From Cellulomonas sp. IC4_254 (GTDB taxonomy: Bacteria > Actinomycetota > Actinomycetes > Actinomycetales > Cellulomonadaceae), in assembly GCF_011603975.1 (NCBI RefSeq), contig NZ_JAANNB010000005.1, positions 1 through 49,003 on the forward strand: a DNA stretch of 49,003 nucleotides. The letters run 5' to 3'. A program made the position numbers and the translations under genes. Each line of letters starts with the position of its first letter. The first letter of the stretch is position 1. Below the pieces are notes generated by a model. The model ran no database searches, was not told the origin of the DNA, and saw only the letters and a program-made list of their open reading frames with translations. This document shows positions 36,904-43,578 of this stretch, piece after piece.

Positions 36904-39471
36904 ATGCCCGACGCCTCGACCAGCGCGCCGGCGGCGCCCGGTCGACCCGACGGGCCCGCCGCGGCCGAGCGCAACCAGGTGCCGCTCGACGGCCTGGGCC
37001 GGCCGCAGGTCCTCGACACGCCCGCGGTCCGGGTGCACCACCCGAGCGACCTGCTCGGCGTCGTGCTCAGCCTGGTCGGGGCCGTCGCCGTCATGGCGCT
37101 GGCCACCTACGCGCACAACACGACGTCGGGCGTCGCCGAGGACGTGCAGGGCTTCGCGTCGCTGCTCCGGCAGATCCTCGTCGTGCCGGTCGCCCTGCTG
37201 GAGACCGTCGTCACGTACCTCGTGCCGATCGCCGTGCTGACCGAGCTGGCGCTGCGGCGGCTGGGGCGGCAGATGGTCGAGGCCTCGATCGCCGCGATCG
37301 TCGCCGTGCTGGCCGCGGCGGGGGTCGCCTGGCTGGTCCAGCACCTCGGCTCCGAGCAGCTGGTCGCGGGCCTGTCGGTGCGGCTGAACGGCCGGCTCAC
37401 GCTCTCGATCCCCGAGTACATCGCGCTGATCGCGGGGCTGCTGACCGCCACCGGCCCCCGCACCCGCCGGCGCACCGTCTCCTGGTCCTGGAACCTGGTC
37501 TGGGTAGCCGTCGGCGTCATGGTCATCACCGCGGGCGCGTCCCTGCCGGGCGTCGCGGTCGCGCTGCTGATCGGCCGCGCGTCCGGGCTCGCCGTCCGGT
37601 ACGTCTCCGGCGTCCGGTCGGAGCGTGCCTACGGCGCGAGCCTGGTCGCGGGCGTGCGCCGCGCCGGCTGGGAGCCGCGGGTCCTGGTCCGGGTGCCCGA
37701 CGAGGACGACGACGCCGCCGACGACGCGGACCACCGCCGGCCGGACCTCCAGGGCACGCCGGGCACCCCGGCCGTCCCCGCCAGCGCCGGCGCCCGCGCG
37801 GCCGTCCGGTACGCCGACCACCGCGCGTACGAGATGGTGACCGAGGACGGCCGCGAGCTCGACGTCCTCGTGCTCGACGGCGACCGCCAGGTCATCGGCT
37901 TCCTGAGCCGGCTGTGGCGGTCCCTGCGGCTGCGCGGCCTCGACGGCCGGTCCGTGGTCTCGCTCCGGCAGGCCGCCGAGCGCGCCGCCCTGCTGTCGTA
38001 CACCGCCACCGCCGCGGGCGTCCGCACCCCGGCGCTGCGCGGCATCGCCGAGGCGGACTCCTCGATGCTGCTCGTGCAGGACCCGGTGCCGGCGGCCACC
38101 TCGCTGGCGGACCTCGACCCCGAGGTCATCACCGACGACGTGCTGCGCGCGATCTGGGCCCAGCTCGGCACGGCGCACGAGGCCGGGCTCGCGCACCGGG
38201 CCCTCACGAGCGACGTGATCCTCGTGGCGGACGGCCCGGACGACCCGACCGTCTGGCTGGTCGGCTGGGACCAGGGCGACGTCGCGTCCTCGGAGCTCGC
38301 CCAGCGGATGGACCGCACGCAGATGGTCGCGCTGCTCGCGCTCCGCGTCGGGCCCGCCCGGGCCCTGGAGTCGGCGGTCGCCGTGCTGCCCGAGGGCGAC
38401 ATCGCGGCGATCGGCCCGCTGCTGCAGACCATCACCCTGCCCCGCCGCACCCGCGAGGAGCTGCGCGCGCACAAGGAGGTGCTGGCCGAGCTGCGGTCCG
38501 CCCTGGTGGCGCGGCTGCCCGAGGCCGACGTCGAGCCGGTGCAGCTGGTCCGGTTCGGCGCGCGCGCCGTGCTGACGATCCTGCTCACCACGGCCGCCGT
38601 CATCATCCTGCTGACCTCGATCAACCTGCAGACCATCCTCGACGCGCTGTCGACGACGGACTGGCGGCTGAGCGTCCTGGCCTTTCTGCTCGGCATGGCG
38701 ACGCTGTTCGGGGCCGCGCTGTCGCTGGTGGCGTTCTCGCCCGTGAAGCTGTCGCTGTGGCGGGCGTCCGTCGCCCAGTCGGCGTCGACGTTCGTGGCGC
38801 TCGCCGCGCCGGCCGGCATCGGGCCGGCGGCGATCAACCTGCGGCTGCTCACGCGGCGGGGCACGTCGACGTCGCTGGCGACGGCGACGGTCGCGCTCGT
38901 GCAGGTGTCGCACTTCGTGGTGACGCTGCCGATGCTGCTCGTGCTGTCGGTGGCGTCCGGGACGAACCAGCTCGAGCGGTTCACGGTCTCGCCCACCGTG
39001 GTCGTCGTGATCGGCGTCCTCGCCGCGATGATCGGCGCCGCGCTGCTCGTGCCGAAGGTGCGCCAGTGGGTGGCCGCCAAGACCCTCCCGACGGTGCAGC
39101 AGACCTGGCCCCGGCTGATCGAGGTGGTCGGGCACCCGTTCCGGCTCGCGGTCGGCCTCGCCGGCAACCTCATCACGACGTTCGGCTACATCCTCGCCTT
39201 CGAGGTGTGCCTGCTCGCGTTCAACCAGCACCTCTCGCTGGTGCAGGTCGCGATCGTCTACCTGGCCGGCAACACCGCCGGGTCGATCGCCCCGACGCCG
39301 GGCGGCATCGGCACCACCGAGATCGCGCTGGCGGGCGCGCTGACGGTCATCGGCGTGAACCCCGGCGTGGCGACCTCCGTGGCGGTGCTGTTCCGGGTGC
39401 TCACCTACTGGCTGCGCATCCCGGTCGGCTGGGCGTCGATGCGGTACATGCAGCGCGTCGGCGAGCTCTGA
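36904..39471 (+). CDS. Flippase-like protein with fused pseudokinase-like domain
   Basis: The 855-residue membrane protein has three parts. The N-terminal part (about 45-230) has around six helices. A cytoplasmic middle part (about 305-545) resembles a degenerate protein kinase: LDVLVLDGDRQVIGFLSRLWR, HEAGLAHRALTSDVILV near 424 in the catalytic-loop position (HRA, not HRD), and WLVGWDQGD near 450 in the DFG position. The C-terminal part (about 549-855) matches the lysylphosphatidylglycerol-synthase/YbhN flippase-like family, with GIGTTEIALAGALTVIGV. The inferred role is lipid or polyprenol-linked substrate translocation with a regulatory pseudokinase. The transcript looks leaderless. Confidence 0.85.
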   Translation: MPDASTSAPAAPGRPDGPAAAERNQVPLDGLGRPQVLDTPAVRVHHPSDLLGVVLSLVGAVAVMALATYAHNTTSGVAEDVQGFASLLRQILVVPVALLETVVTYLVPIAVLTELALRRLGRQMVEASIAAIVAVLAAAGVAWLVQHLGSEQLVAGLSVRLNGRLTLSIPEYIALIAGLLTATGPRTRRRTVSWSWNLVWVAVGVMVITAGASLPGVAVALLIGRASGLAVRYVSGVRSERAYGASLVAGVRRAGWEPRVLVRVPDEDDDAADDADHRRPDLQGTPGTPAVPASAGARAAVRYADHRAYEMVTEDGRELDVLVLDGDRQVIGFLSRLWRSLRLRGLDGRSVVSLRQAAERAALLSYTATAAGVRTPALRGIAEADSSMLLVQDPVPAATSLADLDPEVITDDVLRAIWAQLGTAHEAGLAHRALTSDVILVADGPDDPTVWLVGWDQGDVASSELAQRMDRTQMVALLALRVGPARALESAVAVLPEGDIAAIGPLLQTITLPRRTREELRAHKEVLAELRSALVARLPEADVEPVQLVRFGARAVLTILLTTAAVIILLTSINLQTILDALSTTDWRLSVLAFLLGMATLFGAALSLVAFSPVKLSLWRASVAQSASTFVALAAPAGIGPAAINLRLLTRRGTSTSLATATVALVQVSHFVVTLPMLLVLSVASGTNQLERFTVSPTVVVVIGVLAAMIGAALLVPKVRQWVAAKTLPTVQQTWPRLIEVVGHPFRLAVGLAGNLITTFGYILAFEVCLLAFNQHLSLVQVAIVYLAGNTAGSIAPTPGGIGTTEIALAGALTVIGVNPGVATSVAVLFRVLTYWLRIPVGWASMRYMQRVGEL

Positions 39472-39717: not shown

Positions 39718-39730
39718 GGCAGATCCTTCG

Positions 39731-39808
39731 TTCGGCAGCCCGGCTGACCTGCGGGGGTCCCGTGGCTTTGCGTCCCCTCCTCGCGGAGGGTTTGCCCTTG
39801 TCGCTGAC
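39731..39808 (-). ncRNA. Cyclic di-GMP-I (GEMM) riboswitch
   Basis: Read on the minus strand, conserved GEMM-I elements occur in order: GGGCAAACC (39797-39789), a stem CTCC/GGAG capped by a GCGA GNRA tetraloop (39784-39781), GGGACGCAAAGCC (39776-39764), ACGGGACCCCCG, and AGGTCAGCCGGGCTGCC (39750-39734). The order, tetraloop and spacing match the Vc2-type aptamer. The Shine-Dalgarno of the 56-residue ORF starts 2-3 nt after it. The minus-strand -10 TACAGT (39815-39820) puts the RNA start at about 39808. Ligand choice (c-di-GMP versus cGAMP) is inferred from the retained GGG. Confidence 0.88.
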
Positions 39809-39978: not shown

Positions 39979-41931
39979 TCAGGCCGCCGGCACCGCCACC
40001 GCCCGGAGGAACGACTCGAGCAGCGGCCCCGAGGTCGTCGAGCCGAAGTCGCCGGTCTCGACGAACACCGCGACCGCCAGGTCACCCTGCGCCGCGATCA
40101 TCCACGCGTGGTTCTGCAGGTCGGCGCCCGACCCGTACTGCGCGGTGCCGGACTTGGCGATCACCTCGGGACCGGGCACGTCCTGCAGGAGCTCGCCGCC
40201 GCCCTCGGTGACCACGGCGCGCATCATCGACCGCAGCGCGTCCGCCTCGGCCGCCGTGAGCGGCTGCTCCGGCTCCGGGGCGGCCGTCGCGGTCTCCGCG
40301 CCGCCGAGCAGGAGCCGCGGCGTGACCCGGGCGCCCGCCGCGACCGACGCCGCGACCGTCGCCATGCCGAGCGGCGTGGCCTGCACCCGCGCCTGGCCGA
40401 TCATCGACGCGGCGTGGTCGGTGCCCCCGGTGGCCTCGGCCGGCACCTCGCCCAGCGTCGCCGCGAACCCCAGGTCGGCGTCCGCGACCAGCCCCAGGGA
40501 CGCCGCCGCGGCGGCGAGCGCCTCCTGCGGCGCGGTGTCCGCCGCGGTGAGGAACGCGGTGTTGCACGACTCGGCGACCGCGGTGCGCAGGGTGATGTCG
40601 CCCAGGGCGTCCGCCGGGTACCCGGGGTAGTTCTGGAACGTCCGGCCGTCGACGGAGGCGGTCTCCGGGCAGGTGACCGTGCTGTCCGGGGTCAGGCCGG
40701 CCCGGAGCAGCGCGAGCGACGACGCGACCTTGAACGTCGACCCGGGCGCGTACAGGCCCAGCGTCGCGGTCGACATGCCCCCACCGCCCGGACCGCTGGC
40801 GGCGGCGAGGACCTCGCCGGTCGACGGCCGGATCGCCACGATCGCGCTCGCGCTGTCCGTCACCGTCGCCACCAGGTCCTCGGCGGCCTGCTGCACGCCG
40901 GGGTCGAGCGTCGTGCGCAGCGGCTCGCCGACCTGGGGTTCCACGTGGAACAGCTCGCGCTCCTGCGCGCCGCCCGCGCTCGCGACGACCGTGAGCCCGG
41001 GCTCGCCGCGCAGCTGCTCGTCGAACTGGGCCTGCAGGCCGCTCAGGCCGGCCAGGTCGCCCGCGACCACCGCGCCGTCCGAGTCCTCGACCACCTCCGC
41101 CGTGGCCGGCCCGACCGTGCCGAGCACCGGGCGCGCGAACGCACGGTTCGGCGCCAGCGGCAGCTCGGTCGCGATCATGTTGACGCCCGGCAGCAGCCCC
41201 AGCGCCCCCCGGTCGTAGCCCGCGTCGTCCGCGCGCACCACGATCGCCTCGACGAACGCCTTCTCCCCCGCCGCCGCGACCTGCGCCGCGTAGGCCTCCG
41301 GGTCCAGGCCGAGCGCCGCGGCGAGCCCCCGGGCCGCCGCGTCCGCGTCCGCCCCGGCGACCCGCGTCTTGTCGATGCCGATGCGGAACACCGGCCGGGA
41401 CTCCACCAGCACCGCGTCGCCCGCGCCGAGCACGTCCGCGCGCTCGGCCTGCACCCGGTGCACCTGCAGGCCCTCGCCGGCCGCGAGGTCCGGCGCCAGC
41501 AGCATCGTCGACCACCGGGCGCGCCACTCGCCGTCGACCTCGGCCAGGTTGGCGTGCGTGCTGTACGTCCAGGCCGTGGTGCTGCTGCCGACGTCCCAGG
41601 TGAAGGTCAGCTCGACCGAGGCGGCCGCGTCGTCGTCCGCCGCGGCCACGACATCGCCCGCGACGACCTCCGGCTGCCACGGGTCGAGGCCCTCGTAGGC
41701 GGCGGTGCGCGCCTCGACCGCCTCGGCGGCGGTCGCGCCGTCCAGCGGGACGTCCGCGAAGTCGCCGGACGCGAGCGCGTCCGCGAGGGCGTCGGCGGTC
41801 CGCTGCCGGTCGTCCGGCCCGCCCGAGCACGCCGCGAGCGCGCCGACCAGCGCGAGCACCACCCCGACGGCGACCCCGCGCCGTCCGGCGACCCGACCCC
41901 CTGCGACCCGCACCGGCCTCACACGCCTCAC
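39979..41931 (-). CDS. Penicillin-binding transpeptidase lipoprotein (NTF2-like N-terminal domain)
   Basis: The 650-residue class B-type PBP has a signal peptide and lipobox ALAAC (C35). An NTF2-like/MecA-type N-terminal domain (about 40-150), a dimerisation domain, and the transpeptidase domain follow. The catalytic motifs are STFK (398-401), SCN (455-457) and KSGT (593-596), all intact. It crosslinks peptidoglycan outside the membrane. The N-terminal domain is the type found in low-affinity MecA-like PBPs. GTG 41931 has GGAGGG directly before it; GTG 41922, three codons later, has better spacing. Confidence 0.92.
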   Translation of the reverse strand: MRRVRPVRVAGGRVAGRRGVAVGVVLALVGALAACSGGPDDRQRTADALADALASGDFADVPLDGATAAEAVEARTAAYEGLDPWQPEVVAGDVVAAADDDAAASVELTFTWDVGSSTTAWTYSTHANLAEVDGEWRARWSTMLLAPDLAAGEGLQVHRVQAERADVLGAGDAVLVESRPVFRIGIDKTRVAGADADAAARGLAAALGLDPEAYAAQVAAAGEKAFVEAIVVRADDAGYDRGALGLLPGVNMIATELPLAPNRAFARPVLGTVGPATAEVVEDSDGAVVAGDLAGLSGLQAQFDEQLRGEPGLTVVASAGGAQERELFHVEPQVGEPLRTTLDPGVQQAAEDLVATVTDSASAIVAIRPSTGEVLAAASGPGGGGMSTATLGLYAPGSTFKVASSLALLRAGLTPDSTVTCPETASVDGRTFQNYPGYPADALGDITLRTAVAESCNTAFLTAADTAPQEALAAAAASLGLVADADLGFAATLGEVPAEATGGTDHAASMIGQARVQATPLGMATVAASVAAGARVTPRLLLGGAETATAAPEPEQPLTAAEADALRSMMRAVVTEGGGELLQDVPGPEVIAKSGTAQYGSGADLQNHAWMIAAQGDLAVAVFVETGDFGSTTSGPLLESFLRAVAVPAA

Positions 41932-42086
41932 CCCTCCGCTGCCTCCCGGGGCGACGCGCCGCCGGCACGGTCAGCCTAGGGACCGCGACCTGCACCCACG
42001 GGCCGTTCCGGGCACGGATCCGAGGACGTGCTGTGCGCGTCCTGTGCGCACGGCGCCGGGTCGCGGGCCGGCGTCCCCGCCAGCGG

Positions 42087-42115
42087 TTGACGATCGCCCG
42101 CCTCGCCTCTGGAAT
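42087..42115 (+). promoter_or_regulatory. Promoter of the CNNM leader transcript
   Basis: The -35 TTGACG (42087-42092) and -10 TGGAAT (42110-42115) are separated by 17 bp. The predicted start is the ATG at 42122, 6 nt after the -10, so the leader ORF would be leaderless. Confidence 0.7.
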
Positions 42116-42121
42116 GGTGCG

Positions 42122-42220
42122 ATGTCGCCTCCTGACCAGCCCTGCAGTCCCGTGCGGCGAGCCCGCACCACCCCGGGCGGCCCGACGGCCCGCGCCGACC
42201 GCACGGGGGCTCGCCGCTGA
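42122..42220 (+). CDS. Leader peptide ORF, proline-rich, coupled to the CNNM transporter
   Basis: The 32-codon ORF begins MSPPDQPCSPVRRAR and continues with Pro/Arg/Ala/Gly residues. It starts 6 nt after a -10 element, with no Shine-Dalgarno. It ends in TGA overlapping the transporter ATG (TGATG at 42218-42222), so termination positions ribosomes on the next start. Its early PPD, then Pro-containing run, then Arg-rich segment resembles the layout of the Salmonella MgtL leader, where proline codons and Mg2+-dependent ribosome behaviour control a Mg2+ transporter. It may be regulatory, not a functional protein. Confidence 0.55.
   Translation: MSPPDQPCSPVRRARTTPGGPTARADRTGARR
42149..42217 (+). 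promoter_or_regulatory. Mutually exclusive hairpins in the CNNM leader
   Basis: One segment can pair three ways. CCCGTGCGG (42149-42157) is complementary to CCGCACGGG (42199-42207). GCGGCGAGCCC (42154-42164) is complementary to GGGCTCGCCGC (42207-42217), which covers the ribosome site of the transporter. GTGCGG (42152-42157) pairs with CCGCAC (42163-42168). Ribosome position in the leader ORF would choose among them. Confidence 0.6.
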
Positions 42221-43578
42221 TGGACTCCGAGACCTGGGGCAGCATCGGCCTCGTCCTGCTCTTCATCCTGATCGGCGGCGTGTTCGCCGGGACCGAGATC
42301 GCGCTCGTCTCGCTGCGGGAGAGCCAGATCAACCGGCTCGAGCGGCAGAGCGCCCGCGGCGCCCGGGTGGCCTCCGTGGCCCGCGACCCGAACCGGTTCC
42401 TCGCCGCCGTGCAGATCGGCGTCACCGTCGCCGGGTTCTTCTCCGCGGCCTACGGCGCCTCGACGATCGCCCCCGACTTCGCCCCCGTCATCGAGGCGCT
42501 CGGCGCCTCGGAGGCCCTGGCGCGCACCATCGCGCTCGTCGTGCTGACCCTCGTGATCGCGTACCTGTCGCTGGTCCTCGGCGAGCTCGTCCCCAAGCGC
42601 ATCGCCCTCCAGCAGTCCGCCCGGGTCGCGCTCGCCGTCGCGCCGCCGCTGGACCGGTTCGCCACCCTGATGCGCCCGGTGATCTGGCTGCTGTCCGCGT
42701 CGACGAACCTGCTCGTGCGGCTGTTCGGCGGCGACCCGCACGCGACCAGCGAGGAGATGTCCGAGGCGGAGCTCCGCGACCTCGTCATCGCGCACCAGGG
42801 GCTGCCCGAGGACGAGCGCCGCATCCTCGGCGACGTGTTCGCGGCGACCGACCGCTCCGTCGCCGAGGTGATGCGCCCGCGGCCCGAGGTGCACTTCCTC
42901 GAGGCCGACCTGACCCTCGAGGACGCCCTCGGCCGGGTGCGCGAGCAGCCCTGGTCCCGGTACCCCGTGATCGGCGAGGACTTCGACGACGTGCTCGGGT
43001 TCCTGCACATCCGCGAGCTGCTGGAGGCCACCGACCGCACCCGCGTCCGGGTCCGGGACGTCATGCGCGAGATCGTCGTGCTGCCCGGGACCAACAAGCT
43101 GCTGCCGTCGCTGTCCTCGATGCGCCGCGAGGGCGTGCACATCGCGGTCGTCGTGGACGAGTACGGCGGCACCGACGGCATCGTCACGCTCGAGGACCTG
43201 GTCGAGGAGCTCGTCGGCGACATCCGCGACGAGTACGACATGCCCGGGTCCTCCGGCGCGGAGGCCCGCGAGGGCGCGCCCGGGTCCTACGACGCCGGCA
43301 TCACCATCGAGGAGTTCACCGAGCTCACCGGGGTGCCGCTCGCCGACGGGCCGTACGAGACCGTCGCGGGCTTCGTGATCGCGCAGCTCGGGCGGCTCGG
43401 CGAGGTCGGCGACGCGGTCGAGGTCGACGGGCACCGGGTGGAGGTGACCGCCGTCGACGGGCGGCGCATCGCCCGGGTGCGGGTGGTGCCGCCGCCGGAG
43501 GAGCCGGCGACGGCGGACCCGGGCGACGCGGGCGCGGGCGAGCCCGGTGGGGGCGAGCCCGGGGACGGGCGGGGCTGA
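42220..43578 (+). CDS. CNNM/CorC family transporter with CBS domains (HlyC/CorC type)
   Basis: The 452-residue protein has an N-terminal DUF21/CNNM membrane domain with about three to four helices (VLLFILIGGVFAGTEIALVSLRESQINRL). A CBS pair (about 190-320) includes VMRPRPEVHFLEADLTLEDAL and VVVDEYGGTDGIVTLEDLVEELVGDI. The C-terminal CorC_HlyC domain (about 345-425) has PLADGPYETVAGFV. It ends in a Gly/Pro/Glu-rich tail. Characterised relatives (CNNM, MpfA, CorC) move Mg2+ or other divalent cations. ATG 42220 is preceded by GGGGG about 10 nt upstream and overlaps the leader ORF stop. Confidence 0.92.
   Translation: MDSETWGSIGLVLLFILIGGVFAGTEIALVSLRESQINRLERQSARGARVASVARDPNRFLAAVQIGVTVAGFFSAAYGASTIAPDFAPVIEALGASEALARTIALVVLTLVIAYLSLVLGELVPKRIALQQSARVALAVAPPLDRFATLMRPVIWLLSASTNLLVRLFGGDPHATSEEMSEAELRDLVIAHQGLPEDERRILGDVFAATDRSVAEVMRPRPEVHFLEADLTLEDALGRVREQPWSRYPVIGEDFDDVLGFLHIRELLEATDRTRVRVRDVMREIVVLPGTNKLLPSLSSMRREGVHIAVVVDEYGGTDGIVTLEDLVEELVGDIRDEYDMPGSSGAEAREGAPGSYDAGITIEEFTELTGVPLADGPYETVAGFVIAQLGRLGEVGDAVEVDGHRVEVTAVDGRRIARVRVVPPPEEPATADPGDAGAGEPGGGEPGDGRG

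Follow-up and report, generated by a model that had tools for sequence, protein, structure and literature searches.

The 49,003-nucleotide (nt) stretch of DNA analysed here, called the window below (positions 1 to 49,003 of contig NZ_JAANNB010000005.1 of Cellulomonas sp. IC4_254), carries a gene for a CNNM/CorC-family membrane protein that is preceded by a short upstream open reading frame (uORF) and by a hairpin predicted to cover the gene's ribosome-binding site (RBS). Leaders of this build recur upstream of CNNM genes in other families of the class, and uORF and hairpin together probably help to set whether the CNNM transporter is made. The best explanation that we can offer is a translational switch on a leaderless uORF, from which ribosomes would drop off early at low Mg2+; we propose it tentatively, as a reading that falls somewhat short of being likely. 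The predicted components of the leader (the uORF, its leaderless geometry, its junction with the CNNM gene, the hairpin, an acidic or proline-containing N-terminus, and a near-restriction to CNNM genes) are well supported by the comparison of related loci.

The leader reading frame and a predicted hairpin over the CNNM ribosome site

The uORF occupies positions 42122–42220 of the plus strand, on which all features of the leader lie, and comprises 32 codons (MSPPDQPCSPVRRARTTPGGPTARADRTGARR). Its stop codon TGA (42218–42220) overlaps the ATG of the CNNM gene (42220–42222), giving the junction TGATG (42218–42222), for which we propose termination followed by re-initiation. The gene itself (42220–43578, plus strand) encodes 452 amino acids. 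Its assignment to the CNNM family in the original prediction, made from the letters of the window alone, is borne out by Pfam matches to CNNM (1.7e-42), CBS (5.2e-15), and CorC_HlyC (1.8e-19); among its solved relatives are proteins named CorC (4hg0), hemolysin with CBS domains (7m1t), and CNNM4 (9y9f).

Regions upstream of CNNM orthologues were collected from the genus, the family, and the class, yielding 207 loci, which are part of the matches listed (matches in 43/81, 116/221, and 164/296 genomes). Before counting, 15 duplicate loci, eight distant-paralogue or remote loci, and redundant leaders of more than 0.8 similarity were removed. The close set consists of the window plus 13 close loci with the same AGTCCC motif, drawn mostly from Cellulomonas, with the rest from the same genus; these 14 loci are not independent, several being near-identical strains. 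The original prediction had read a 32-codon uORF joined to the transporter by TGATG; uORF and junction alike are kept in 14/14 of these loci, and L049 and L050, close loci outside this set, have the junction too. The distance from AGT to TGATG takes seven values between 42 and 75 nt, and that from the predicted leaderless ATG to AGT takes five values between 21 and 36 nt, every one of them a multiple of three. A frame kept through such changes of length argues for translation of the uORF in this frame, and translation is thereby supported on comparative grounds. Other genera vary the overlap of stop and start codon, which reads TGATG, GTGA, or ATGA.

Within the uORF, GCGGCGAGCCC (42154–42164) is perfectly complementary to GGGCTCGCCGC (42207–42217), the segment directly before the CNNM start. 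This 3′ arm overlaps the G-rich ribosome site of the gene and takes in part of a Shine-Dalgarno-like stretch, GGGGG (42205–42209), which may be what ribosomes recognize. Twelve of the 14 close loci carry this arm unchanged; L048 has both arms changed together and still complementary, and in L040 the pairing is, by eye, partial only.

Because the GC content of about 74–79% makes single-sequence folding of little use, arms were swapped between loci instead: scores were obtained for the helix joining the uORF to the last 26 nt ahead of the CNNM start, with a leader's own arms and with swapped ones, a procedure that preserves composition. Leaders were non-redundant and long enough for a helix, a filter that retained 43 and 30 of 57 leaders for the duplex-energy and contiguous-helix tests, respectively. 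The contiguous-helix score was 21.0 for own and 15.9 for swapped arms (n = 30; z = 8.4; 0/20000 permutations), the duplex energy −23.5 vs −20.4 kcal/mol (n = 43; z = −5.4; 0/20000 permutations), and the helix score, when the 5′ window was tied to the position of the motif codon, 23.3 vs 16.2 (z = 9.8; 0/20000 permutations), the last in 25 leaders pooled from the promoter-blind and peptide-blind sets described below. A helix score of 21 was attained by 15/30 leaders with their own arms vs 9.4% of swapped pairs. The arms differ wholly among genera, yet they pair, as in ACCGTTCACCC/GGGTGAACGGT (L149), GCGCCCACC/GGTGGGCGC (L085), and CAGCCCCTCGC/GTGAGGGGCTG (L106). Together, these results support a predicted hairpin between uORF and RBS that is kept by compensatory change. 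The 5′ arm starts 7–9 nt past the motif codon in 14 of the 18 loci with a score of at least 18, vs 40 of 197 swapped pairs; in the window, the codon motif AGT-CCC (42146–42151; AGTMCC in many leaders) is placed 8 nt before the arm, and in leaders of the M-D-D-P group the arm mostly starts at uORF nt 23–25.

A second pairing had been proposed for the same region, in that 42149–42164 was thought to choose between two partners in the manner of mgtL. Both pairings are present in the window, where CCCGTGCGG (42149–42157) is complementary to CCGCACGGG (42199–42207). Only the pairing with the RBS is conserved and shows compensatory changes, whereas the CCGCACGGG partner is exact in only 3/14 close loci and was rejected, leaving an mgtL-like choice between two hairpins unsupported. 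Two mutually exclusive conserved hairpins were thus not found; across genera, the RBS hairpin alone is supported. A local hairpin at 42152–42168 was likewise rejected: it is present in 12/14 close loci, shows no compensatory change, and is broken in L046 and L048.

Promoter geometry, early peptide, and a preferred codon

The −35/−10 pair of the original prediction is present in the sequence: TTGACG (42087–42092) is followed after 17 nt by TGGAAT (42110–42115), which stands 6 nt before the uORF ATG at 42122, so that transcription is predicted to start at the A of that ATG. Each element is found in 12 of the 14 close loci, with a spacer of 17 or 18 nt, and TTGAC recurs in numerous further leaders across the family. 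A consensus promoter scanner called no promoter at the window leader, and TGGAAT is an imperfect −10 element; the claim of a promoter therefore rests on conserved geometry, which was assessed in leaders chosen without regard to promoters.

To enter this promoter-blind set, a uORF had to overlap the CNNM start, encode an acidic residue at either of codons 2 and 3, and contain AGT, AGA, or TGT as one of codons 5–9. These features, the strict form of the leader motif, were found in 57/207 loci, 44 of them non-redundant; the window's clade is not among the 44. A T....T hexamer stands 6–7 nt before the uORF start in 33/44 (13 and 20 at the two spacings), and every other spacing accounts for 0 to 5 of the 44. 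The narrower form TA...T occurs 6–8 nt before the start in 20/44, and all other spacings from 0 to 25 nt together hold one. A −10-like box at 6–7 nt before the first codon is the geometry of a leaderless ORF.

The peptide was assessed in a complementary, peptide-blind set of leaders called by promoter and overlap alone (90/207 loci, 59 non-redundant). Codon 2 encodes an acidic residue in 34/59 of them, codon 3 in 32/59, and codon 4 in 2/59; proline stands at codon 4 in 26/59. The early motif common to genera is, as read from these translations, M-D-D-P (acidic at 2–3, often proline at 4). In the window, codons 2–5 (42125–42136) read S-P-P-D, so that the early acidic and proline residues typical of MgtL-type leaders are present there as in many of the 59 leaders. 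The original prediction had singled out PPD as a stalling motif; an early acidic/proline peptide stands, and PPD itself was seen in the window's clade only. Aspartate codons 2–3 of promoter-blind leaders are written as both GAC and GAT, as expected if the residue matters.

A second preference concerns serine. AGT makes up 27 of 46 serine codons at codons 5–9 and 1 of 58 at codon 10 or later in the peptide-blind set (Fisher p 1.4e-11). The preferred AGU, sometimes replaced by AGA or UGU, is codon 6 in many genera and codon 9 (42146–42148) in the window. Sensing of a single amino acid, serine or cysteine, was considered and is thought unlikely, given a codon that may be AGT, AGA, or TGT; this variation was seen in a set chosen to contain one of those three codons.

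Distribution among CNNM genes

A looser form of the leader, consisting of a uORF with an acidic N-terminus and an in-frame AG[TA][AC]C within 180 nt upstream, was found in 56/207 CNNM loci, with 3 on the reverse strand and 1.8% in shuffles. Searched in 220 genomes of the family, the pattern ATGGAYGAYNNNNNNAGTMCC (MDD/AGTMCC) gave 21 matches, with five tallied in the reversed control. Nineteen of the 21 lie before a CNNM gene of the window's type (one of them, in G209, placed by extrapolation from a partial match), one before a second CNNM gene, and one elsewhere; near-restriction of the leader to CNNM genes is thus supported at the level of sequence patterns. A looser class-wide pattern was not enriched in 394 genomes (17 matches vs 19 tallied in the reversed control); 6 of the 17 sit at CNNM genes.

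The second CNNM paralogue of the window's own genome, on another contig, has a leader (MDGDSSTDPLRPYETATGGEI) that again ends in TGATG. An acidic N-terminal uORF with an in-frame AG[TA][AC]C was found upstream of 15/30 second-paralogue loci, with none in 32 loci on the reverse strand and 2.6% in shuffles; the 30 loci came from a protein search and include that of the query, and two loci found by pattern (L248 and L262) were excluded. Several of these leaders carry, by eye, a Shine-Dalgarno-like stretch before the start and do not look leaderless. In L279, L280, and L282, also second-paralogue loci, the upstream ORFs start with basic residues, by eye (MRRAKRKYRQP-like and MKRASRICRQP-like). Two loci of the same family, L082 and L090, have a leader (MDTDSRPSTQ... 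in L082, by eye), then a short ORF starting MTWVLLP, and then the first CNNM gene. The beginning of that short ORF resembles that of second-paralogue proteins (MTWVLSLLLG in L248); the arrangement may be a remnant of leader exchange between CNNM paralogues.

Absences occur as well. No such uORF lies upstream of CNNM in genus g5 of the family (e.g. L067 and L069–L076), where, by eye, only a few nt separate a −10-like TTGGAT from the CNNM ATG, as would suit a transporter that is itself leaderless. In the window's own genus, L060–L065 have no leader with these features. Leaders of family f26 are short, examples being MNDSTPGRHSVQGSLR and VSDRHTSAGPGS.

A proposed switch, its competitors, and related systems

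From these features we infer that ribosome passage opens the hairpin, that re-initiation follows, and that drop-off conveys a Mg2+ signal to an exporter with the polarity given below. Transcription starting at the A of ATG 42122 would let ribosomes initiate directly on the uORF. As long as the uORF is untranslated, 42154–42164 would pair with 42207–42217 and hide the CNNM ribosome site; a ribosome traversing the uORF would melt this hairpin, terminate at TGATG, and re-initiate on CNNM. With the 5′ arm inside the uORF and the stop overlapping the start, a translating ribosome would have to open the hairpin and would end at the CNNM start. The weak spot would be the opening of the uORF, which encodes M-S-P-P-D in the window and M-D-D-P in many genera. 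The distance from the P site to the leading edge of the ribosome is usually 15–16 nt; a ribosome on codons 2–3 would thus end just before the 5′ arm, and early drop-off would leave the hairpin closed. At low Mg2+ the young nascent chain would destabilize the ribosome, like EPDP of MgtL, and early drop-off would keep the exporter off; with ample Mg2+, ribosomes would pass and the CNNM exporter would be on.

Background to these steps comes from published work. Ribosomes translating MgtL drop off at EPDP in low Mg2+, and toeprints with EttA put Pro3 in the P site (PMC11282234). Re-initiation has been demonstrated at an AUGA overlap in mycobacteria (PMC11260477). Bacterial CNNM/CorC proteins have been linked to Mg2+ efflux (PMC12421838; MpfA, PMC8844918), which is why we propose the polarity of on at high and off at low Mg2+; Salmonella corC and mgpA are induced by high Mg2+, and MgpA is lowered when the upstream YoaL start is lost (PMC12421838). 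A wider claim, that the leader is a class-wide, ancient actinobacterial Mg2+ sensor that acts through the stability of the elongating ribosome, inversely to MgtL, at no fewer than two CNNM paralogues and independently of mgtL, is one that we consider doubtful, if conceivable.

Several observations weigh against a drop-off switch of this kind or qualify the reading of the leader. As to the promoter, the scanner made no call and TGGAAT lacks the A at position 2 of the −10 consensus. The window's clade carries S-P-P-D where other genera have D-D-P, and D-D-P may itself be too weak, since in Escherichia coli a clear EttA-dependent effect took more than two acidic residues, DPEE being the minimum (PMC11282234). 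The preferred AGU codon is left without explanation; a programmed pause would accommodate it equally well or better. The leader is missing from many orthologues, given its detection in 57, 56, and 90 of the 207 loci by the strict, looser, and promoter-based calls. Where it is found, a strong helix is not present in every leader (15/30 at score 21), and in the short f26 leaders no RBS hairpin is evident, L148 and L147 having no preference for their own arms (duplex-energy ranks 34/43 and 40/43). The fold of the window is no better than that of its own shuffles (z = −0.65; L038, −2.14; L044, −0.43; L043, −1.05). L049 and L050, with CNNM proteins 83% identical, keep TGATG behind uORFs of 7 and 9 codons and have neither AGTCCC motif nor hairpin. 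Finally, the direction of transport by animal CNNM proteins is disputed (PMC5830416, PMC8726484). The uORF of L050 consists, by eye, of the nine codons MPPTPRRTL before the same TGATG and leaves no room for a hairpin.

Some of these observations would be accommodated by constitutive coupling, in which a leaderless uORF merely loads ribosomes onto a GC-rich message and passes them to CNNM, with no sensing. The short uORFs of L049 and L050, free of motif and hairpin, speak for it, as do genus g5, where TTGGAT stands just before the CNNM start and the uORF is missing, and the hundreds of adjacent ORFs in Mycobacterium tuberculosis reported to share an NUGA overlap of stop and start (PMC11260477). 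Plain loading, however, needs neither a compensatory RBS hairpin nor the acidic and AGU preferences, and the MDD/AGTMCC pattern is found almost exclusively before CNNM genes; we consider this explanation unlikely, although it is the strongest of the competitors. The AGU preference would find its place if a ribosome paused at AGU-[C/A]CC covered the 5′ arm and so freed the CNNM ribosome site, as in erm and cat attenuation. A constant distance between motif codon and arm (7–9 nt in the 14/18 loci above, despite varying codon number) means that a ribosome paused at the motif codon would cover the arm, and AGU is rare later in the uORFs (the 1/58 serine codons above). Such stalling would leave the D-D-P preference unexplained and the inducer is not known; moreover, the codon, mostly serine, encodes arginine (AGA) or cysteine (UGU) in some leaders of the codon-selected set, and we rate stalling as less probable than coupling.

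The choice of AGT over its synonyms at codons 5–9 points to letters over residue, and could also be taken to mean that AGUMCC and the hairpin bind a protein, a small RNA, or a cation, the peptide being incidental; some second-paralogue leaders do have, by eye, a local hairpin after the motif. Against such an RNA-level sensor, aspartate codons 2–3 vary between GAC and GAT with the residue constant, length changes preserve the frame, and the leader has no Rfam match, which together make it improbable. The start at 42122 might, lastly, not be special, a longer uORF or an upstream promoter being used in its place. In-frame GTG starts are present upstream of 42122, and the scanner saw no consensus promoter, but the −10-like box 6–7 nt before the start in 33/44 promoter-blind leaders makes this possibility a very slight one. 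The early drop-off switch thus remains our preferred explanation.

Among known systems, mgtL-mgtA of enterobacteria is similar in its short leader with an acidic and proline-containing N-terminus (EPDP in MgtL; PMC11282234) and its downstream Mg2+-transport gene, a role that we assign to the window's CNNM gene from its protein family. Ribosome drop-off is the sensor in mgtL and is only proposed for the window leader. The enterobacterial leader works through Rho-dependent termination of transcription and serves to switch on an importer at low Mg2+, whereas the window uORF is predicted to be leaderless, overlaps its gene, and has a hairpin covering the ribosome site of a gene of the efflux-linked CNNM type. 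The original prediction of an mgtL-like leader before a CNNM gene holds in part, for the uORF, the junction, the RBS pairing, and the early peptide; the polarity is likely to be opposite to that of mgtL. In yoaL-mgpA (yoaE) of enterobacteria, a small leader ORF overlaps a Mg2+-protection gene with a CorC domain, and changing the yoaL start codon to a stop lowers mgpA translation (PMC12421838); the membrane domain of MgpA is TerC, unlike that of the window CNNM protein. The mycobacterial uPPE2-ppe2 pair is an actinobacterial case of a uORF with stop/start overlap, and ppe2 depends on uPPE2 translation, mostly through re-initiation (PMC11260477); unlike the window uORF, uPPE2 is leadered and under control of a B12 riboswitch. 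The 5′ upstream region of E. coli corA, also a Mg2+ transporter gene but of a different gene family and organism, is described as adopting folds that resemble known structures (PMC11552253).

In erm and cat attenuators, an RBS-sequestering hairpin is opened by a ribosome on the leader ORF upon drug-induced stalling; in the window, by contrast, the leader ORF runs into the start codon of the next gene. The portions of the open-access literature consulted (listings and openings of abstracts) contain no description of the leader reported here. If the proposed switch is real, actinobacteria would control a Mg2+-linked transporter with a leader peptide, encoded at the extreme 5′ end of the message, that reads how stable the ribosome is; this would be an inverted-output counterpart of the enterobacterial mgtL system. 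The switch would also supply a means of regulation for a family of transporters whose leader control in actinobacteria is not described in the same portions of that literature, and a compact system for the interplay of leaderless initiation, early nascent-chain instability, and re-initiation, with two CNNM paralogues behind one and the same leader motif as a natural control.

Scans of the surroundings added the following. No intrinsic-terminator-like site was found in 41900–42400. Rfam 15, at the gathering score, had no match at the window leader and, in 15 relatives, gave two matches (a small SRP RNA and a tRNA), neither of them at the leader. Its sole match in the window is a c-di-GMP-I-GGC riboswitch on the minus strand (39730–39805; 68.5 bits), which sits 3′ of a minus-strand penicillin-binding-protein gene (39979–41931) and faces the end of a plus-strand ORF (36904–39471).

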